This document shows, one piece after another, positions 7,809 through 21,562 of a stretch of DNA of 26,294 nt (position 1 is its first letter; each line of letters starts with the position of its first letter). The notes under the pieces are model-generated. The model ran no database searches and was not told the DNA's origin. It worked only from the letters and a program-made list of their open reading frames with translations. Where the stretch lies: contig NW_014577088.1 in assembly GCF_000485595.1 (NCBI RefSeq), positions 873,740-900,033 on the forward strand. The letters are read 5' to 3'. The translations under genes and the position numbers were made by a program. The DNA comes from Priapulus caudatus (Eukaryota; Priapulida; Priapulimorpha; Priapulimorphida; Priapulidae).

Positions 7809-8099
7809 TGACATTCCTTGTAAATAGGCTAGATTCATTAAAGTTCTGGAAATGTTATCTGACCTTCTTCCTCTGTCTGTCAATAGCTATTCATAGACAC
7901 TGCCCACGCCAATTAAGATGCCAATTAACAAAATTATTAACACAATTAGGCTAATTACATGATAATACAACAACAATAACAGAACCAGATAGTGATAATT
8001 ATGGTGGCTTGCTCTCATCAGATCAATCCTGGGCAAGTCAAATATTATACTTCTGTGGTCAAGGGACACTACTACATTTAATTATCATGTTAATTAACA
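7809..8099. repeat. Left long inverted repeat of the transposon
   Basis: AT-rich arm running from TGACATTCCTTGT to TTAATTAACA. It contains GTCTGTCTGTCAATAGC-like and AATTAGGCTAATTACAT motifs. The right arm at 10056-10347 is its inverse, with a handful of substitutions and a one-base indel. It abuts the start of the gene and so must hold any nearby promoter. Confidence 0.9.
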
Positions 8100-8100
8100 T

Positions 8101-9942
8101 ATGGGGCGCGATGTCCTGCTTGCATTCAATGTGTTCAACGGGTTTCCTGCAGGATGCCAACAGGACTCCATGCCACCCATGCTGCTTGCCTTGGTCAATA
8201 TGATCTTGGAAGGTCCCAGTTTCAAGCACCAGAGTGAAAGCACAACACCAGCGGCACCGAGCATCGCCCAGCACCTCAAGTTCAACAGCGTTATGCACCG
8301 ACGGGCCGCCACAGGCAATACGCCTCACCCAGTCAGGCACGCCACCACGCAGGAGACGCCAGTTCCAACCTACATCGGCCTAATGCTACATGCACACACG
8401 CGCAAGAAGAAGCTCGTCGACAGGCTGGCACACATGGGGATTTTTATCTCCTATGATCGGGTCCTGTCCCTTTCCACACAGCTGGGGAACAGTGCCTGCT
8501 GCCTCTACCACCAGAAACAAGTAGTCTGCCCTCCCAAGATGAGAGGCAGAGTCTTCACGACTGCTGCGATAGACAATATTGATCACAACCTAAGTTCCAC
8601 CACAGCAAAACAGTCATTCCATGGAACTGCTATTTCCCTCATGCAACACCCTGCGGTCCCTGGGGCTGGCATTGACCGCAGAATCATCATCCTCGGAAGG
8701 CCGAATGAAAGAGGCCTCAAAACAGTTGACCATTTGCCGCACTACTATACAGATGCCCTATCTGTCGGCAGCATCAAGAACACCCCCGTGCCGGCTACCA
8801 GCGTGACATCCCTGAGCAGCAACAGCGGCCTCAAGCAACATGCTGAAAAAGAGTATCTCTGGCTAAAACACACCCAAGTCGCCCTACAAGAAACTTCTCC
8901 AGTGGAGAACACTTCATGGGCTGCATACCACACAAGCCAGCAGAACATGCTAGCCAGGCGGGCCATCTGTCCCACCGCACTGCTCCCACTCTTCCTGGAG
9001 AGCGCCCACACCGTGGCTATGATCAAGCACTCCATGGATGTGGTCAGGATTTCAGTGGAACATCTCAACCCTGGCCAGACTCGGACCATTGCAGACAAGG
9101 AGCTGGCCATCACTGAAGGAGATGATGTATTGAGCAAGCCACCGCTCCTAGATACTGCAGCCGTGGCTCCTTGCAACCACGAGGAAGCCGACAGCCACAT
9201 GGTGTTGCATACCGCCCACGCTGCTCACAATGGCCACAAGAAGATTCTCATCTGCACAGTTGACACTAATGTTGTTGTCCTGACAGTGGCTCTGGCACAC
9301 ACCCTGGAGGAGGAAGCCGAAGTGTGGGTGTCCTTCGGTAAGGGCAAGGCTTTCCGGTTCTTGGCAGACCATGAGATGGCGCGGGCTCTGGGGAAAGCGC
9401 AGGCACTACCGATGTTTCATGCTTTGACATGCTTCGCCGGACATGGCAAGAGGACAGCATGGGCAGTGTGGACAGCTCTACCTCAGCGGACCCAGACACT
9501 CGTAGATATCTCCACTGCACCAGATCATATTGATGAAGATGCCATGCACACCATCGAGAGGTTTGTCATCCTGCTTTATGACAGAACAAGCACTGCAACC
9601 GATATCGACAAGGCACGCCACACACTGTTTGCAAAGAAGAGCAATGTCCAGCTGATCCCACCGACAAGTGCAGCCCTGAAGCAGCACGTCCGACGAGCAA
9701 TATACCAGGGCGGACATGTCTGGGGTCAGGCCCTGGTTCCTGCACCAACATTGCCATCACCAACCGACTGGGGTTGGATCAAGACCAGCAACATGTACGA
9801 ACCTCTCTGGACAACGCTCCCCGAGGCATCCAAGGTCTGCCGGGAGCTTATCTCCTGCAAATACCAGAAGGGCTGCATCAAGAGGTGCAAGTGCAAGAAG
9901 GCCAGTCTGGAATGCACACCACTGTGTGCTTGCGACGGGTAG
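8101..9942 (+). CDS. Transposon-encoded protein, PIN/XPG-like nuclease region plus cysteine-rich tail
   Basis: 613 residues. I recognise the family from memory as a large repeat-encoded group in marine invertebrates; its function is unproven. Visible parts: an N-terminal region with LHAHTRKKKLVDRL (96-109), ISYDRVL (116-122) and IDNIDHN (157-163); a nuclease-like region with NHEEAD (E361, E362, D364), TVDTN (D388, N390), HALT..FAGHGKRTAW (440-454) and ERFVILLYDRTS (486-497); IPPTSAALKQHVRRAIYQ and DWGW (556-559); then a tail with cysteines 580, 586, 592, 596, 598, 605, 609 and 611, like a Tesmin/TSO1 CXC motif. Full-length relatives, as I recall, exceed 1,000 residues. Here a central block of several hundred residues seems missing around residue 327, in frame. 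Family D at 390 is N, a GCD-containing stretch near 444 is absent, and a CxC cysteine is Y588. The start is the first ATG, six bases past an in-frame TAA. Probably a dead transposon copy; domestication is possible. Confidence 0.85.
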   Translation: MGRDVLLAFNVFNGFPAGCQQDSMPPMLLALVNMILEGPSFKHQSESTTPAAPSIAQHLKFNSVMHRRAATGNTPHPVRHATTQETPVPTYIGLMLHAHTRKKKLVDRLAHMGIFISYDRVLSLSTQLGNSACCLYHQKQVVCPPKMRGRVFTTAAIDNIDHNLSSTTAKQSFHGTAISLMQHPAVPGAGIDRRIIILGRPNERGLKTVDHLPHYYTDALSVGSIKNTPVPATSVTSLSSNSGLKQHAEKEYLWLKHTQVALQETSPVENTSWAAYHTSQQNMLARRAICPTALLPLFLESAHTVAMIKHSMDVVRISVEHLNPGQTRTIADKELAITEGDDVLSKPPLLDTAAVAPCNHEEADSHMVLHTAHAAHNGHKKILICTVDTNVVVLTVALAHTLEEEAEVWVSFGKGKAFRFLADHEMARALGKAQALPMFHALTCFAGHGKRTAWAVWTALPQRTQTLVDISTAPDHIDEDAMHTIERFVILLYDRTSTATDIDKARHTLFAKKSNVQLIPPTSAALKQHVRRAIYQGGHVWGQALVPAPTLPSPTDWGWIKTSNMYEPLWTTLPEASKVCRELISCKYQKGCIKRCKCKKASLECTPLCACDG

Positions 9943-10055: not shown

Positions 10056-10347
10056 TGTTAATTAACATAATAATTACATGTAGTAGTGTCCCTTGACCAC
10101 AGAAGTATAGCATTTGACTTGCCCAGGATTGATTTGATGAGAGCAAGCCACCATAATGATCACTATCTGGTTCTGTTATTGTTGTTGTATTATCGATGTA
10201 ATTAGCCTAATTGTGTTAATAATTTGGTTAATTGGCATCTTAATTGGCGTGGGCAGTGTCCATGAATAGCTATTGACAGACAGACAAAGAAGGTCAGATA
10301 ACATTTCCAGAACTTAAATGAATCTAGCCTATTAACAAGGAATGTCA
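10056..10347. repeat. Right long inverted repeat of the transposon
   Basis: Inverse of 7809-8099, running from TGTTAATTAACATAAT to CAAGGAATGTCA. It begins 113 bp after the stop codon of the gene. A weaker echo of its GCAATTAGCC-TAA-ATGTTAATTAAT motif lies just outside at 10391-10420. Confidence 0.9.
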
Positions 10348-13474: not shown

Positions 13475-13528
13475 CTACATATCAAGAATACATAATAGAG
13501 ATCTCTATTATGTACTCTTGATACATAT
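13475..13528. mobile_element. 38-bp palindrome (13483-13520), possible minimal hAT-like element
   Basis: CAAGAATACATAATAGAGA joined with no spacer to TCTCTATTATGTACTCTTG: 19-bp arms with one mismatch. The flanks CTACATAT (13475-13482) and ATACATAT (13521-13528) agree at 7 of 8 positions in register, as a hAT target duplication would. The arm closely resembles that of the palindrome at 21513. There is no room for anything beyond the two ends. Calling it a transposon remnant is inference; the palindrome itself is certain. Confidence 0.55.
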
Positions 13529-14068
13529 ATTGCGCCAAGCCTGCCAGCACTTGACTGTTACACGCGTCCTGACATAATTATATTACCTATAATACGCTCT
13601 GTGCAGTCTATAGTGACACATTGAATACCGCATGCGCGCCCACACAGTGGCACGAGCATATACACTCTCTCAGTGGCTGTCTTACAAATAATTAACAAAT
13701 ATGCCGGGTGGCCTTTCACGTTCACTAGCAAGCACTAATGCTGATTAACAATGTTCAAAGCAAAAAAAATACGCATGTCACCATAGCAACAGTGAAGATC
13801 AGACGTAACAAAAAATCAAATCGGTCGCACCATGTAGGCCTATATTTGCGAAGAAAGAGAAAAATTAATGAGTAATAGGGGAACGCAGGAAAGCGCGGTA
13901 AAGAATAAAGAACGAGATGAACGAGAACTATATATATATACATATACACTATAATATATATAAGTGTCCGTGTGCATAGTGCAGCCGCGTGAGCAATGAA
14001 CGCCGGCAGCGTATGTTGCACATAGAGGATTTGGACGGAATTTACAGGAATTAAACTGTCGGCAATAA
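13529..14068. other. No gene recognised
   Basis: AT-rich DNA with a short A run at 13763-13770 and TA-rich DNA at 13929-13961. The 112-codon minus-strand frame at 13755-14093 is hydrophobic and low-complexity, lacks known motifs, and overlaps repeat DNA at its upstream end. Confidence 0.5.
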
Positions 14069-14172
14069 TAGGTGAAAGAGAGTACAGAAACATTAAGAAT
14101 TTGGTAGTAAATAGATTTCGTATTTATTTAGCATTATATTTTATTGAAACGCTTCAAGTGCCTGTGTGCACA
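14069..14172 (+). repeat. Composite dispersed repeat related to 16674-16748 and 17211-17255
   Basis: 14069-14114 (AGGTGAAAGAGAGTACAG, then ACATTAAGA and GTAGTAAAT) matches the right arm of the inverted-repeat element at 17211-17255. The adjoining 14117-14145 is a 29-bp exact match to 16691-16719, and both continue to AGTGCCTGTGTG. So one continuous stretch here corresponds to two places about 0.5 kb apart near 17 kb. Confidence 0.8.
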
Positions 14173-15201
14173 CTTACACAACAAGAGCCGCAGAACGACT
14201 GGGCTCATCTGAGGTTTGTTGCTACGGTTATCAACTCAAAATTTCAGTTGTACGTAGTGACACCTTTGTTAGATTTACAGATATGCAGATATGCAGATAG
14301 GCGCAGATATGCAGATACGCAGTTGCGTACACATAATTTCAGCAAACTTTGGCAAAGGCAAGATACGGTAACCGTTGAGTACCTTAATTGTCAGAGTTAC
14401 AGATCAACGTAATCATATGATATAGATGTAGATAAATATTAGATATAAATGTTATATGTAGATATCAACGTTGCTTGCATATGCGCGTAGCCTGAGGGCG
14501 TAGCCAGCATGTCGTAAACAAAACGGAGTGACACCTGGCGCCAACGAATTCATTTAATTCCGATAGATAGATGGATTATTTCTTACGTAGTATAGATATT
14601 TTCTTGTGTATAAACACTGTACTTGCCTGTATAAACATCAATTATCTTTATAAATAAATTTTATTTGAATTTGATTTTGAATGCGTGCGAGTTGCTATCA
14701 TCCCTGCACATTCTTTTAAGTCTGTTCCGATAGATGGGGGCCGTTATCAAAAAACATACCGTATCGTGCAATGCAAGACTAGACGGCGTCCTGCCGTCGA
14801 CTCCACTCACTATGATCGCTCTGCCAGGCCCAGCGAGCCTAAGCCGAGAGCTGGCGATCGAGTACCAGTCTACATTTTGAGCAGCTATCACAAACCGCAC
14901 ACTCAAGATACCACTGTTCACAATGCTAGCCACTATTTTTCAAGTTGGCGGGGCTCCGGGGAAATCCAGCAAATGGCAATCAACGGCCGTGAAGTCGGCC
15001 GCCGAACAAACACATTAGAAATTTCTATGATTTGCATGTTTGTTGGTGACAAATTTAGATCTTTTAAGCTGAATACGCAAAAATGCATCAAAGACAATGT
15101 TCGAGAATTAGGTATATTGGCAAGCATTTCGAAAAATTCATGATAAATATTAAATAAACACGTGAACTTAGTTTAGTAAAACAGCGTAATGCTATTGAAC
15201 A
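14173..15201. other. No gene recognised; short ATGCAGAT-type tandem repeat
   Basis: At about 14278-14323 the octamer ATATGCAG recurs four to five times with small changes. A 152-codon frame at 14685-15143 has no recognisable domain; with no family match or supporting context I leave it uncalled, though it is among the longer frames outside repeats. Confidence 0.5.
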
Positions 15202-15342
15202 GTAGTAAATGTGCGCACGTATTTCGTATCACTATTTTATCAAATTTCTCATAAAATAATGGTCGGATTTTTAATATCTTTGCAACTTTTATTAGTCAAA
15301 TATTATTACATAGGACACGAGTAAGCGTGCCTGCTGTAAAAC
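15202..15342 (+). repeat. Dispersed repeat, copy 2 (mate at 11431-11581)
   Basis: Same orientation as the first copy. It ends at CTGCTGTAAAAC, after which the two loci differ. I could not find terminal repeats or a target duplication for either copy, so the element type is open. Confidence 0.85.
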
Positions 15343-16050
15343 CTGTTAGTAAAAAAGCGTTACAAATTGTAACCGAAATCTGTTTGTGGCAGTGGTATAT
15401 TGAGCCCATGAGCGAGAGCGCCATCTGTCGTGAAGTTTGCAGCTATCAGCCACCACAAAAAGCCAGTCAGTGCGAGCGGTGGCGAGTGTATTCGTAATGT
15501 ACACTAAAGAATCTCATATATAATTATTGTTTAAGTAAGTCAACGTTGTTCAAGTAAGAGTTATGTGTGGAATTTCACTGTAAAATGTGAGCCTTGCACA
15601 ACCACAGGTACTGGCAAAAGCAGCAGCGTACGCAGTAAACAAATCCTTCAAGGTTAAATGCTTTAATTAATTATATATACTATAGACCTACCGTGAGCTC
15701 CTCTGTTGCAAAAATTCACTAGAACTCATTTGTATTGCTACTTTCATAACATTTCTTCTCAAAATCTAAACGAAGATACAGCTGTGTAACTTTAATGAAT
15801 TCACTATATTAACATGTCATCATGGAAATGCATCGAGCGCGAGCGTAGTGGTAGTGGTGCATGGGGGCGGGGGTAAGGGCGGGTGGAGATGGCTCTACTA
15901 GCAAAAGCAGTTCAGTCCTTTGTTGACAGTCAACAAATCCATGTTTAACCGCTCCGTTGAGTGTCAAAAGCGTTATCAGACACTTACTCTTCCCGTCAGT
16001 GGAAGTACATTCATTGTCTTTCAATAAAGTGATAAAAAATGGTAGGTCAG
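15343..16050. other. No feature recognised
   Basis: No credible reading frame or repeat. An AT-rich patch lies at 15660-15685. Confidence 0.5.
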
Positions 16051-16515
16051 CACTGAAACAAACAAGTTTTTCACTGGGTCCGTTAAACCATGTCCTCAGA
16101 AAATGTCTGATATCTTACATTTCCCCTGCCCTTTAACCTGTGACCTCCAATTTCGCTCTGGTGATGGGTTTCCTGCCCATCACACTATACACCGAATATT
16201 AATAGATAGGTCAAGCCGTTCAGATTTGTGGGCCGCAATTCGCTATTTCATCCTATACCCTTAAGTTTAAGGGGCAAATTTTACCCTCGTTCGACAGCAT
16301 CTTGACCTTTGACCCCTTGCCTTCCCAAATCGGTCATCCCGAGTTTCTTTTCAACGATCCCCCCCCCCCCCGACGTCCCGAATATCGTGACCGTGACGTT
16401 GCGAGCGGTTTAAGATTTGTGGGCCCAACTGTTGACCGGAGGACGCACGAGACACACAGGGACACACGGAACACGACCTGCACGGAACGGAAGGACGCTA
16501 ATTGCGACTTCTAGC
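16051..16515. repeat. Probable interspersed-repeat DNA with GACCTTTGACC motifs
   Basis: It contains CTGGTGATGGGTTTCCTGCC, a CTTGACCTTTGACCCC motif (16301-16316), a run of 13 C (16359-16371), TTTGTGGGC twice (near 16225 and 16416) and a purine/CA-rich end with ACACACAGGGACACACGGAA. These resemble tails of invertebrate interspersed repeats, but I cannot name the family or fix its ends. No coding frame is convincing. Confidence 0.35.
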
Positions 16516-16673
16516 AAGCTGCATCTGACTTCGTTCAATAGATGGAGCTAAAAATGGTAGTAAAAATAGAAATAAATAAACTAACGTCTATATTGATGTG
16601 TAAGTTGTGCAGCGATAGTGCGTGCGGTTTGTGCTTGTGTTTGCTGTGGTTGGGGCATTTGACGTGGCTCAGA

Positions 16674-16748
16674 CTTTGTAGTAATAGCACTTCGTATTTA
16701 TTTAGCATTATATTTTATTTGGAATTACGCTCCACAGTGCCTGTGTGA
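16674..16748 (+). repeat. Dispersed repeat matching 14103-14168
   Basis: TAGTAAT.G, a 29-bp exact block at 16691-16719, then AGTGCCTGTGTG at 16736-16747, in the same order and orientation as at 14103-14168. The following 16749-17020 has no recognised feature. Confidence 0.8.
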
Positions 16749-17020
16749 CATACTGCGAGCAAATCGGCAAAATACATAAAATGTAAATGGAGGCGTTGCA
16801 GAAAATGGAACATGAAAACAAGAACAAAAAGTACAGAAAATACCCATATAGCTACCATGATTTTTGGAGCAGATATGGGTCTGGTATAAGTTAATAAAAA
16901 CTTTAAGGGCGCGAGAGTCTTGAGCGCACGGGCATATGGAAGCGTATTTCATATAATATAAATGATATGATTTGTACGTATGAATGGTATATGTCACGAA
17001 AAGTATTTAACTACTACAAA

Positions 17021-17234
17021 AGTCTTAAGCTTTCATGCTTACTCTCTTTTCGCTTATTTATTATTAAATAACTTTCTGTAAATGCTGTTTCAAATGCTCT
17101 CTCTCTATTTTTGGTTGTTTGGTCGAACAGTGCGGCGTGCATTTGCGGCCGTGCATGTGTGTAAGAACGGAAGCATTTGACCAGGCATTTACAGAAAGCT
17201 ATACTAATGATTAGGCGAAAGAGAGTAGGGAGAA
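17021..17234. mobile_element. Imperfect inverted-repeat element (MITE-like)
   Basis: Left arm 17021-17098 (AGTCTTAAGC, ACTCTCTTTTCGC, TTTCTGTAAATGC, CAAATGCT) is mirrored in 17172-17234 (AGCATTTGA, GCATTTACAGAAA, GCGAAAGAGAGTA, CATTAAGACT). The arms surround 73 bp of unique DNA. No clear target duplication is visible. The right end recurs at 14069-14114, which supports mobility. Superfamily unknown. Confidence 0.65.
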
Positions 17235-17255
17235 CATTAAGACTGGTATGTAAAT

Positions 17256-17761
17256 GTGCAGCGATTTGCGATGTTTATTTGATCATCATGTACCTCGGAC
17301 GCAACGGAGTTGGCAGGAGCAGTATTGTGATGCTGGCGGTGTGATGTGTTCGTGTATGTGTTCGAGAGCAGATGACGGCAGTCAGTGTGTTTTCGTGTGT
17401 GTGCCGTAGCAGCAGTGTCAGCCAGCCAGACGAATCGATTCAACAGCCCGCGTCGCCTTAAGGGCGTCGAGTCGCAGCAGCAGCTCGCTCGCTTGCACGC
17501 GATCAATCAATATTTTCACGATTCTACTACTATTTTTTACTAGAACTACTAGAAAATTGCAGCTAAAACTGAATAACTACGAAGTCAGCGAGCGGCGCGC
17601 AGGCGCAATCGACTGTACGCGCGTCGGCGAGTACAGCGTAGTGGGAGTCAGCAGCAGCCCCCAGTGAGGCGGCGAGCAGCAGCAGGCGAGTGCCAGTCAG
17701 TCAGCCGCCACCAGCGAGCTAGCATACATGCTACGCATGCTCGCCGAGGTATGCCTCTCCG
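17256..17761. other. GC- and CpG-richer stretch beside the satellite; no gene
   Basis: From about 17390 the composition shifts to CAG/CGGC-rich text with frequent CpG (AGCGAGCGGCGCGCAGGCGC at 17590-17609), which could be a CpG island or promoter-proximal region of an unseen gene. No frame with known domains is present. A single N at 17762 marks the junction with the satellite. Confidence 0.4.
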
Positions 17762-17762
17762 N

Positions 17763-18318
17763 ACATCACCGCTACGAATGCGGTACGCGGCGCACGTACG
17801 GCACACATCACCGCTACGAATGCGGTACGCGGCGCACGTACGGCACACATCACCGCTACGAATGCACGCGGCGCACGTACGGCACACATTACCGCTACGA
17901 ATGCACGCGACGCACGTACGGCACACATTACCGCTACGAATGCACGCGGCGCACGTACGGCACACATCACGCTACGAATGCGGTACACGGCGCACGTACG
18001 GCACACATTTGCCGTACGTGCGCCGCGTGCATTCGTAGCGGTAATGTACGCCGTGCGTGCGTCGCGTGCATTCGTAGCGGTGATGTGTGCCGTACGTGCG
18101 TCGCGTGCATTCGTAGCGGTAATGTACGCCGTGCGTGCGTCGCGTGCATTCGTAGCGGTGATGTGTGCCGTACGTGCGCCGCACATCACCGCTACGAATG
18201 CACGCGACGCACGCACGGCGTACATTACCGCTACGAATGCACGCGACGCACGTACGGCACACATCACCGCTACGAATGCACGCGACGCACGCACGGCGTA
18301 CATTACCGCTACGAATGC
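17763..18318. repeat. 39/42-bp satellite, clean block with orientation switches
   Basis: The unit is CATCACCGCTACGAATGC, ACGCGGCGCACGTACGGCACA, with a 42-bp variant having GGTACGCGG. Starts at 17764, 17806, 17848, 17887, 17926 and 17965 show periods of 42, 42, 39, 39 and 39. Orientation reverses at about 18008 and again at about 18180. Single Ns lie immediately outside both borders. Because the period is a multiple of three, long frames stay open on both strands; they are not genes. Confidence 0.95.
18029..18318. repeat. Perfect 137-bp inverted repeat within the satellite
   Basis: 18029-18165 and 18182-18318 are exact reverse complements around a 16-nt spacer (TGCCGTACGTGCGCCG). Inside the arms, two versions of the 39-bp unit alternate (GCACGGCGTACATTACC and GTACGGCACACATCACC), giving a 78-bp dimer not seen in the first, directly repeated part. 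The right arm ends exactly at the N at 18319. Confidence 0.95.
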
Positions 18319-18482
18319 NCTACGCGTTATGCAGACAGCAAGCCGATAACAAACTGGCAGAACTACATACCCTCCTTACGCAGTACCGTCTCGTGTCTCG
18401 TTTCCGGTTGGGTCCTATGTTTTTTCCGACAGTACGCTCTTTTATAAACATGTACCGTGCACAATGTTCACTTACATACTAT

Positions 18483-18498
18483 CAGAAGTAGATAATAG
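18483..18498 (+). repeat. Half copy of the small palindromic motif
   Basis: With its preceding TAT, 18480-18498 matches 21510-21528 at 18 of 19 positions (CAGAAGTAGATAATAG against CAGGAGTAGATAATAG). It abuts the left arm of the fold-back element. No inverse arm is present nearby. Confidence 0.5.
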
Positions 18499-18805
18499 TG
18501 AAATCGTTTCCTCGTATACACCCGCAATCCGGATATACAGACTAAAAACGTACGATTACGATTGTCCATTAGTCTGCCAGCAAACTGAATGCTATTAACC
18601 GCCTAAATTGAAACAACAGGTAGCTACCTAACGAGCCACACCGCTCGCGGAACGAGCAAGTGCGCCAAGAAGCTGCCTTGTTTCAATTTAAGGCGTGGTT
18701 TATAATTTCATTTTGCTGCGGCCGACATAATGGGAAAATCGTTGTTGTACGGTTTTAGTCTGTATCTCGGATTGCCGGGTGTTATACGAGTGAAAACGAT
18801 TTCGC
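18499..18805. mobile_element. Fold-back element between the two satellite blocks
   Basis: The left arm 18499-18616 (GAAATCGTTT, CTCGTATA, GCAATCCG, ATACAGACTAAAA, TAAATTGAAACAA) is mirrored by 18678-18805 (TTGTTTCAATTTA, TTTTAGTCTGTAT, CGGATTGC, TATACGAG, AAACGATTTC), with scattered indels concentrated in the left arm. The roughly 60-bp centre contains AGGTAGCTACCT and GCTCGCGGAACGAGC. Long arms with no gene fit a fold-back or MITE-type element. No target duplication is evident. Confidence 0.75.
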
Positions 18806-18869
18806 ACGAGCTAGCGAATGTACTGTGTACGATTTTGAGCTCAAGTTAGCTTGAGTTACCGGTACGGGG

Positions 18870-20690
18870 GCAATTGCGGTACATTGACGCACGCACGGCC
18901 GTACATTCCTCCCTTACGAATGCACGGCAACGCACGTCGGCAACACATCACGCTATACGAATGCCACGCGGTGCACGTACGGCACACATTTAACCGCTAC
19001 GAATGGGTACACGGCGCACGGCACGGACATGACATCACGTCTACGAAATGCGGTACACGGCGCACACGTACGGCATACATTACGCCTCTACGAATGCCAC
19101 GACGGCGCACGCACGGCAACACATCACGCTACGAATCCACGCGCGTCGCACGTACGGCACGCACATTACCGCTGACGAACTGCGTAACACGGACGCCACG
19201 TACGGCATACATCACGCTACGAATGCACGCGGGCCGCACGCACGGGCACACCATCGACCTACGAATGCACGCGGGCGCACGCACGGCACACATTACGCTA
19301 CGAATGCACGCGGCGCACGCACGGCACACATCACGCCTACAATGCACGCGTGCACGTACGGCACACATACCGCTACGAATGCGGTACGCGGCGCACGCAA
19401 CGGCTAGCATCACGCTACGGAAGCGTAACGCCGACGTACGACTGTACAAGCACGCGGCGCACTGCACGCTAGCCATACACGCTACGAATGCACGCGGCGC
19501 ACGCACGGCACACATCACCGCTACGAATGCACGCGGCGCACCGCACCGAGCACACATTCACCGCTACGAATGGCCACGCGGCGCACCGCACGGCACAAAC
19601 ATTACCGCCTACAATGCACGCGCGCACGCACGGCAACAATTCACCGCTTACGAATGCACGCGGCGCACGCACGGCCACACATCACCGCCTACGAATGCAC
19701 GCGGCGCACGCACGGCGCACATCTAACGCCTACGAATGCACGCGGCGCACGACGGCACCATTACCGCCTACGAATGCACGCGGCGCACGCACGGCCACTA
19801 GCTACGAATCACCGGCGCACGTGCACGGAACATCCGCCTTCAATGCGTAGCACGCGCACGTACGCAACACATTTACCGCTACGAATGCTGGCTTACACGG
19901 CGGCACGGTACGGCACACATCTACCGCCCATACGAATGCGGTACACGGCCGCACGATACGGCACAACACACCGCCTACAATGCGGTACACGCGCAACGTA
20001 CGGCACACATTCACGACCGTACGAATGCGGTACACGGCGCACGTACGGCACACATTACCGCTACGAATGCAGCCGCGACGCCACGTACGACACAACATTA
20101 CCGATACGAATGCACGCGATGCACGTACGGGACACACATCACCGCTACGAATGCACGCGACGCAGCGTACGGCACACACTTACCGATACGAATGCACGAC
20201 GGGCGCACGTACGGCACACATCACCGCTCACGAATGCACGCGGCGCACGTACGGCACACATCACGCGCTACGAATGCACGCCGGCGCACGTACTCGGCAC
20301 ACATTACCGCTACGAATGCACGCGACGCACGCTACGGCACACAAAAACATTACCGCTACGAAGCACGCGGCGCACGCACGGCACACATTACCGATACGAA
20401 TGCACGCGCATGCACGTACGGCACACATCACCGCCTACGTAATGCACGCGACGCACGTACGGCACACATTACCGTCTACGAATGCAGCGCGACGCACGCA
20501 CGGCACACATTACCGCCTACGAATGCACGCGGCGCACGCACGGCACACATCACCGCCCCTCTACAAATGCTCGCCGCGCCACGTACGGCCACACATTACG
20601 CCCTACGAATGCGGGACAACGCGGCGCACGTACGGCACACATCACCGCTACGAATGCGGTACACGGCGCACGCCGTCTGTACCGCCGCAT
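18870..20690 (+). repeat. 39/42-bp satellite, long degraded block (about 45 units)
   Basis: Same unit and orientation as the first part of 17763-18318, for about 1.8 kb, but almost every unit has one or more single-base insertions or deletions (CGCTATACGAATGCC, GCCTACAATGC, CGGCAACACATC). Substitutions are few relative to indels, a pattern more like uncorrected long reads than age. Frames of 290, 291 and 279 codons across it are periodicity artefacts. Confidence 0.93.
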
Positions 20691-21010
20691 CTCTGCATGC
20701 GTCGTGATTACACGGTGCTGCTGCTGCTAGGCGACGCGACAATGGCAGTAACTAACCAGAAGATACGAGGCGCCGCGCCCGCGTCTCCGGCATCCGAGCG
20801 TAAACTACGCGTTCGTTAATGCGGCGCTTCATCAGCGCCGAGACGACGTGCCTCCCCCTCCGCGTGACAGTTTTTACACGTGTACGCAGAATGCACGTCC
20901 GTCATTATGAGGGCGAGCCTTACTATCACACGCACATCCGACTCGTTGCGGTCCTACGCTATAGTGCTATTATATCCCTATATCACTACAATGCTATAGT
21001 GCTATAGTGT
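20691..21010. other. No gene; CTATAGTG-type short repeats at the end
   Basis: 20971-21010 repeats GCTATAGTGCTATAGTG-like octamers leading into a TA tract at about 21011-21028. The rest shows nothing recognisable. Confidence 0.5.
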
Positions 21011-21025
21011 TATATATATATATAT

Positions 21026-21039
21026 ATACCGCTACGAAT
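21026..21039 (+). repeat. Isolated 14-bp satellite fragment
   Basis: TACCGCTACGAATT is the core of the 39-bp satellite unit, found alone within TA-rich DNA about 340 bp beyond the array. It may be a stray piece of the array; it is too short to prove that. Confidence 0.45.
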
Positions 21040-21065
21040 TATAATATATAATATTCGGTGCTTTA

Positions 21066-21135
21066 GTGTTATCAGGGGTTAATAATGACAAATTGTCATT
21101 ATTAATCACTTGTCATTATTAACCCCTGGTGTTAT
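21066..21135. mobile_element. 56-bp palindromic element (21073-21128) with 7-bp flanking repeats
   Basis: CAGGGGTTAATAATGACAA (21073-21091) is exactly mirrored by TTGTCATTATTAACCCCTG (21110-21128), enclosing 18 nt that contain another TTGTCATTATTAA copy, so two hairpins compete. GTGTTAT abuts both ends (21066-21072 and 21129-21135). GTGTTAT also occurs at about 21007 in local repeats, so the flanks could be coincidental. The arm resembles the terminus of the MITE at 21159. Confidence 0.55.
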
Positions 21136-21158
21136 AATATATATATATATATATATAA

Positions 21159-21501
21159 CAGGGGTAGAAATGAACTTTTGAACAAGAGAGTTCAACGGAC
21201 TCTCTACCCTCAAAAAGAGGGAGTCCGCAGTCTGAGGTTCAAAATTAAAGATATTAACAATAACGCATGTGCTAATTTCTAAGATTCATGCAGTTGCACG
21301 TCTGCCAAATTTTCTTTGGACATTAGCAGAAAAAATACAGTACTTAATTCAGCGAGGCCGTGCTTCGGAACAAACTATAGTTAGTATGGCAGAATTTTCA
21401 GGGAGTCACAGTGACACGGACTCCTGCATATGTCAAATCAGGGAGCCCGACAGTAAATCAGGGAGTATTTGACTCCAGACTCCCGTTAATTTCGCACCCT
21501 G
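21159..21501. mobile_element. hAT-like MITE inserted in a TA tract
   Basis: CAGGGGTAGAAATGAAC at the left and the inverse of CAGGGTGCGAAATTAAC at the right agree at 13 of 17 positions. TA repeats flank both ends (21151-21158 and from 21502), so a duplication of TATATATA-like DNA is plausible but not provable. The interior has GGACT, CCCTC, GAGGG, AGTCC hairpin segments near 21200 and three TCAGGGAG motifs near 21398-21465. The 67-codon frame inside has no recognised domain. Confidence 0.65.
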
Positions 21502-21512
21502 TATATATATAT

Positions 21513-21554
21513 CAGGAGTAGATAATAGAAGACTTCTTCTATTATCTACTCCTG
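21513..21554. mobile_element. 42-bp perfect palindrome, possible minimal element
   Basis: CAGGAGTAGATAATAGAAGA, CT, then the exact inverse TCTTCTATTATCTACTCCTG. Flanking ATATAT extends the symmetry to 26-bp arms. It lies 11 bp beyond the MITE at 21159-21501 within the same TA tract. Arm sequence and layout match the palindrome at 13483. Confidence 0.6.
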
Positions 21555-21562
21555 ATATATGT

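Follow-up and report, generated by a model that had tools for sequence, protein, structure and literature searches.

Short palindromes with duplicated flanks in the Priapulus caudatus genome: probable excision footprints of P-superfamily-like transposons

Introduction

The window analysed here is a stretch of 26,294 nucleotides from the genome of Priapulus caudatus (contig NW_014577088.1, positions 873,740 to 900,033). It contains three short palindromes with duplicated flanks, numbered 1 to 3 in Table 1 and, for brevity, called scars below. Are these palindromes mobile elements in their own right, or are they what larger elements left behind on leaving? The original prediction, made from the letters of the window, had named both possibilities: the smallest mobilisable units of a hAT family, or the products of palindrome-forming excision. 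Sequence comparisons within the window and across the genome suggest, with a probability that we put at roughly 0.87, that the palindromes are excision footprints of P-superfamily-like cut-and-paste transposons, which were sealed by error-prone end joining.

Excision footprints of the P element are known from experimental sites in Drosophila (PMC2895639, available excerpts); hundreds per family in a natural genome make such footprints data. The point where the known end stops is a readout of the transposase stagger, and the centres are a readout of how the break was sealed. The number of scars relative to intact copies is informative on how frequently elements departed and were not restored. 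There is also a caution for repeat annotation, in that scars can be taken for the smallest possible transposons.

Palindromes of the window

The three palindromes, a half copy at 18483-18498 and the start of a further element at 21159 all lie where the original prediction had placed them. Each palindrome is preceded by TAT, as it had said, and flanking duplications, which it had proposed for two of the three, were recovered as well, exact over 7 bp for palindrome 2 and identical at 7 of 8 bp for the other two. Its description of near-perfect palindromes fits palindrome 1, which has one mismatch, and palindrome 3, but not palindrome 2, where a filler separates the arms. The 18 nt between the perfect 19-nt arms of palindrome 2 repeat part of the arm. 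The left arm of palindrome 1 is CAAGAATACATAATAGAGA; the arm quoted earlier was the right one, which differs from it by one letter. One mutated arm suggests age, and palindrome 1 is probably old. For the solitary arm at 18483-18498 no partner arm was found; it may be a scar with a single side, or else the terminus of an element not otherwise known.

Five short palindromes were counted in the window; dinucleotide shuffling in 500-bp blocks (200 rounds) gave 0.04 on average and never more than 1. At that stringency the five are the three scars and two palindromes inside the satellite at 17740-20680.

Genome-wide families and target duplications

The home genome, represented by one assembly of 385,217,808 bases (385 Mb), was searched for the arm families of palindromes 1, 2 and 3 and for a fourth, related family. 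The family of palindrome 3 (CAGGAGTAGATAATAG, centre of 4-14 nt) has 239 exact loci. With a centre of 2-30 nt, there are 91 exact loci for the family of palindrome 1 (CAAGAGTACATAATAG), 46 for that of palindrome 2 (CAGGGGTTAATAATGA) and 219 for the fourth family (CAAGAGCTAATAATA). Each of the four patterns read backwards gave 0 loci. These family counts are lower bounds, as mutated arms and scars keeping fewer than 15-16 nt on either side escape the patterns. The genome search proposed with the original prediction thus excludes that the arms of the window have few or no other copies (91, 46 and 239 loci). Its other concern, that palindromes with unrelated arms might be equally common, is contradicted by the reversed patterns and by a comparison of end pairs: in 226 kb, whatever the arm, 7 of 142 CA...TG palindrome pairs stand between exact duplications of 7-9 bp, compared with 0-3 such cases for each of nine other end pairs. 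Of the three cases with TC...GA ends, one is a CA...TG scar plus an extra letter per side.

When 20 contigs were sampled at 10 kb each (200 kb), eight CA...TG palindromes of several arm types, with exact 7- or 8-bp duplications, were found in 4 of the 20 stretches; one of the eight (L064:7842) is doubtful, having a TA run as its interior. The extrapolated genome total is about 15,000 scars, a figure with a large error, as scars cluster. Strong clustering was seen at L006:279-1642, where 1.4 kb holds four or more palindromes, which belong to several arm types.

The flanks were read for the 50 listed of the 239 loci in the family of palindrome 3. Exact duplications are present at 39 of these 50 loci (7 bp at 23 and 8 bp at 16). 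Among the remaining loci, six are one letter off, two have a 6-bp match, and three are without a duplication at the tested boundary. One of the three is a 130-bp composite scar (L009:1412-1541) with a long filler of repeated arm fragments; its outer duplication, AAATTAT, is exact, and with the outer flanks it is counted as the 40th locus with an exact duplication. When flanks were re-paired between loci (9802 pairs), exact matches made up 0.9% for 7-mers and 1.0% for 8-mers, and near-matches 6.5% and 4.5%, respectively. That the flanks never form duplications, which would have told against the original prediction, is excluded by the 39 exact cases. Exact duplications were also met in members of all four families, at loci chosen for having duplications.

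The duplicated target has a symmetric motif, nTnnnAn in the 7-bp class (ATANTAT) and nTnnnnAn in the 8-bp class. In the former, T occupies position 2 and A position 6 in 22 of 23 loci each; the latter has T at position 2 (15 of 16 loci) and A at position 7 (16 of 16).

Intact relatives and the limit of the retained ends

Longer elements that share the ends of the scars were found for the fourth family. They measure 356-3149 bp, and their inverted repeats extend past 20 nt. The 356-bp element (L007:2242-2597, end CAAGAGCTAATAATACCTAGAGTGTACAACGG) is flanked by the duplication ATATCTT, and its inverted repeat measures about 79 bp. In the 786-bp copy (duplication ATGATAT), the inverted repeat is perfect over at least 150 bp. 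An 803-bp copy is flanked by ATAAAAT. In the 1422-bp copy (duplication TTTGTAT) the ungapped repeat is imperfect past 40 nt, and in the 3149-bp copy (duplication ATATTAT), which has a 1608-bp run of N inside, past 20 nt. All five have exact 7-bp duplications, with T and A at the fixed target positions in four of the five. The 32-nt end of the family occurs exactly 97 + 100 times; 219 scars thus stand against 197 exact intact ends, a count that allows no more than about 98 complete elements. The 200-bp end of the 786-bp copy has 41 matches (40 of 753 candidates were scored), with 97-100% identity to it, which suggests that at least that set was amplified recently.

Measured against the known end of these intact elements, the 50 listed of the 219 scars keep 15-20 nt per side; 0 of the 100 sides exceed 20 nt, and the gap had room for longer retention. 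Lengths of 15, 16, 17, 18, 19 and 20 nt are kept by 22, 12, 5, 29, 22 and 10 sides, respectively, where the peak at 15 nt comes partly from the search minimum, and chance junction matches may account for a part of the sides with 19 or 20 nt. A similar limit was observed in the family of palindrome 2. There, the agreement of side letters is 0.98, 0.97, 0.90 and 0.91 at positions 17-20, and drops to 0.58 at position 21 and 0.31 at position 22 (further in, 0.44 and 0.61). The limit of about 20 nt is clearest in these two families.

Centres and fillers

Centres were counted in the whole family of palindrome 2 and in the 50 listed loci of each of the others. Distinct centres number 30 of 46 in the former, 35 of 50 (of 239) in the family of palindrome 3, 43 of 50 (of 91) in that of palindrome 1, and 41 of 50 (of 219) in the fourth family. 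The centres are thus mostly private, and a common interior, as copies of a miniature inverted-repeat transposable element (MITE) would share, was not found among the centres of the four families. The commonest centres are GGAATTCC, CAAATTTG, AGATCT and CCTAGG, the products to be expected when two tails of 18-20 nt are simply joined. The fillers of at least 5 nt in the fourth family (n=25) match their own arm over 7.28 nt on average, against 4.41 nt when shuffled, and 13 of the 25 do so individually at p <=0.05.

P-type transposases

The home genome contains 64 matches to Pfam PF21787, the P RNase H domain; 14 control genomes, specified only as well-known genomes, gave 0. One of the matches lies in an open reading frame of 827 aa (L075:437-2917, minus strand), which carries PF21787, PF21788, PF12017, PF21789 and THAP9_C, which are all the P-transposase Pfam domains; the same reading frame matches PDB 6p5a (2.8e-23).

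Evaluation of the explanations

An excision would account for these features as follows. The element would insert at a palindromic target rich in A and T, of the form nTnnnAn or nTnnnnAn, duplicating 7 or 8 bp. On exit the transposase would make a long staggered cut, with one strand cut at the element end and the other about 20 nt inside, so that each side of the donor break would keep about 20 nt of the terminal repeat as a 3' tail. The tails would then be fused by end joining, in part probably of the polymerase-theta type, either directly, through short overlaps, or once pieces of the arms had been copied into the gap. The product would be duplication, arm, filler where present, arm, duplication. 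We infer the cutting enzyme, the strand geometry and the repair polymerase from these traces, and the three window families presumably behave like the fourth. The excision half of the original prediction is supported by the conserved outer ends of about 20 nt, the mostly private centres, the arm-copying fillers, the duplications and, in one family, the intact relatives.

Several observations weigh against this explanation. Intact elements were met for one of the four families, and for none of the three window families. In the elements that were read, no transposase was seen between scar-family ends, and terminal repeats with a duplication were not found within 4.5 kb of the L075 transposase locus. 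Taken singly, 12 of the 25 fillers do not stand out (p >0.05). In the families of palindromes 1 and 3, the agreement across positions 17-20 runs from 0.69 to 0.42 and from 0.68 to 0.82, and sub-families blur the positional limit. The retained length appears to point to 18-21 nt, against 17 nt in Drosophila P. Finally, the simple centre CAAATTTG recurs at 11 of 46 loci, and mobility of the palindromes predicts recurrence too.

This last point touches the idea that the palindromes are themselves mobile, as elements reduced to their two ends and moved by a transposase in units of 36-60 bp. Such units would be flanked by target duplications, as the palindromes are, and the recurrence of simple centres extends to GGAATTCC, found at 5 of 50 loci, four with different exact duplications and one without. 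The differing duplications fit repeated simple joining and equally fit mobility. However, moved units should share centres, and most centres are private in all four families, though simple ones recur, as is expected where tails of 18-20 nt are simply joined. The sole repeated centre of the filler type, CCTAGTATAGG in the fourth family, occurs twice on one contig 14 kb apart (C35:298022 and C35:311999), possibly by local duplication. The known mobility of the P element also reportedly requires internal sequences. We therefore regard mobile palindromes, the other half of the original prediction, as quite unlikely. A further proposal is that the scars were made by another long-stagger transposase, neither P nor hAT. 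No transposase is tied to the scar ends, and the retained 18-21 nt differs from 17 nt; but duplications of 7 or 8 bp, a GTANTAC-like target and long retained tails together make up a P-superfamily pattern, and P transposases are present in the genome, so this proposal is unlikely as well.

The hAT label of the original prediction found little to sustain it. The CAGG/CAAG ends speak for hAT MITEs or hAT excision products, and nTnnnnAn, the form of the 8-bp class, is also the hobo motif in the available part of PMC3276498; but 23 of the 39 exact duplications are of 7 bp, against 8 bp for hobo in the same source. The intact fourth-family elements also have 7-bp duplications, a common interior is lacking, and about 20 nt of each end is retained. 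Retention on that scale is not known from hAT excision. On the duplication length, the missing common interior and the retained ends, hAT MITEs were rejected, and a hAT origin of either kind is very improbable. That TA-rich DNA gave rise to the palindromes by chance or through faulty assembly was likewise rejected and is scarcely credible: several palindromes do sit in TA-rich runs, but the reversed-pattern controls (0 against 46-239), the shuffles (mean 0.04 against 5) and the exact duplications contradict this origin.

With excision footprints as the preferred explanation, a broader proposition may be put forward, for which we judge the odds slightly better than even. The genome might hold natural scars in numbers of the order of ten thousand, of several related P-superfamily lineages, whose transposase would cut about 20 nt inside the element and not 17. 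The scars would then document, like fossils, a large number of breaks repaired independently of one another; sequence alone might show how the cut was placed, what signature the repair left and how many departures there were, even for families without surviving intact elements. Compared with the Drosophila footprints, what is new in the scars is that they are natural and numerous, come from several families and keep more of each end. In the literature, at the level of titles and abstract openings, natural genome-wide P-type scars were not found described.

Other features of the window

The coordinates of the palindromes and their flanks are collected in Table 1.

Table 1. Palindromes, solitary arm and flanking duplications in the window.
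Feature	Position	Strand	Remarks
Left target-duplication copy CTACATAT	13475..13482	.	7/8 bp identical to right copy
Palindrome 1 (putative scar), arm family CAAGAGTACATAATAG	13483..13520	.	38 bp, one arm mismatch; family of 91 exact genome loci
Right target-duplication copy ATACATAT	13521..13528	.	partner of 13475..13482
Solitary arm CAGAAGTAGATAATAG	18483..18498	+	one mismatch to the arm of palindrome 3
Left copy, exact 7-bp target duplication GTGTTAT	21066..21072	.	
Palindrome 2 (putative scar), arm family CAGGGGTTAATAATGACAA	21073..21128	.	two 19-nt arms and 18-nt filler; family of 46 exact loci
Right copy, exact 7-bp target duplication GTGTTAT	21129..21135	.	
Left target-duplication copy ATATATAT	21505..21512	.	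7/8 bp identical to right copy; inside TA run
Palindrome 3 (putative scar), arm family CAGGAGTAGATAATAG	21513..21554	.	perfect 20-nt arms; family of 239 exact loci
Right target-duplication copy ATATATGT	21555..21562	.	partner of 21505..21512

Other repeats are present in the window. The MITE at 21159-21501, with CAGGGGTAGAAATGAAC and CAGGGTGCGAAATTAAC ends, is embedded in TA repeats, which obscure its duplication. A link between this MITE and the scars was rejected: its arm gave 0 exact palindrome loci in the home genome, a weak negative, as the copy number of the MITE was not learned. An element of 193 bp at 2418-2610 has CAGTGCTTCTTAAACT ends and the exact 8-bp duplication ACCTAGAG, and we take it to resemble a hAT-type MITE. 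The segment 7809-10347 has an uninterrupted open reading frame of 613 aa (8101-9942) between two inverted repeats, each about 292 nt long (7809-8099 and 10056-10347, 95.5% identical). A Pfam search with two open reading frames of the window, including this one, gave no matches; the whole is perhaps a transposon with an unrecognised transposase. The satellite at 17740-20680 consists of units of about 39 bp and includes a near-perfect inverted repeat of 290 bp at 18029-18318. Its second half has many small insertions and deletions, which may be sequencing error. A tRNA-like sequence with a CAT anticodon context adjoins, by eye, an A/T-rich tail at 280-345, and a related stretch lies near L067:2459. 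ARAGORN found no tRNA at 280-345, which is perhaps a tRNA-derived short interspersed element.

Comparison with known systems

The cut made by the P transposase of Drosophila is unusual in its stagger of 17 nt, and the donor DNA is left with 3' terminal-repeat tails (PMC7776569, PMC10983969, PMC2895639, available excerpts). The P{wa} repair junctions in Table 1 of PMC2895639 consist of the duplication, up to 17 nt of the end, microhomology or an insert, up to 17 nt of the other end, and the duplication; in the available text of that paper, polymerase theta is linked to long-microhomology joins and complex templated insertions. As far as those excerpts show, the scars of P. caudatus are built in the same way, from duplication, stub, microhomology or partly templated insert, stub and duplication, with stubs that end at a fixed distance. 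The P{wa} junctions differ in their 17-nt tails, 8-bp duplication, single engineered site and many deeper losses. Here, about 18-21 nt is retained, the duplications are of 7 or 8 bp, and there are hundreds of natural sites per family, among which the patterns detect only scars keeping at least 15-16 nt per side.

In the accessible parts of PMC4168063 and PMC3276498, the target duplications are given as 7 or 8 bp with GTANTAC for Galileo, 7 bp with GTTNAAC for 1360, and 8 bp with GTCCGGAC for P. The families described here likewise have 7- or 8-bp duplications at palindromic targets, in this case ATANTAT. The intact fourth-family elements also share very long terminal repeats with Galileo. The end sequences are different, the outer target positions are A/T and not G/C, and no transposase was seen here between the ends. 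The hAT MITEs and hobo, as described in the material available, have similar CAGG-like ends, and the 8-bp class here has their nTnnnnAn form; the scars differ from them in their mostly 7-bp duplications and in an interior that is not constant. Pdre2 of zebrafish has 13-bp terminal repeats, and excision by zebrafish THAP9 gave larger flanking deletions. In the available text of PMC10983969, Pdre2 is nevertheless comparable as an animal P-type element outside the flies, with an 8-bp duplication and active excision.

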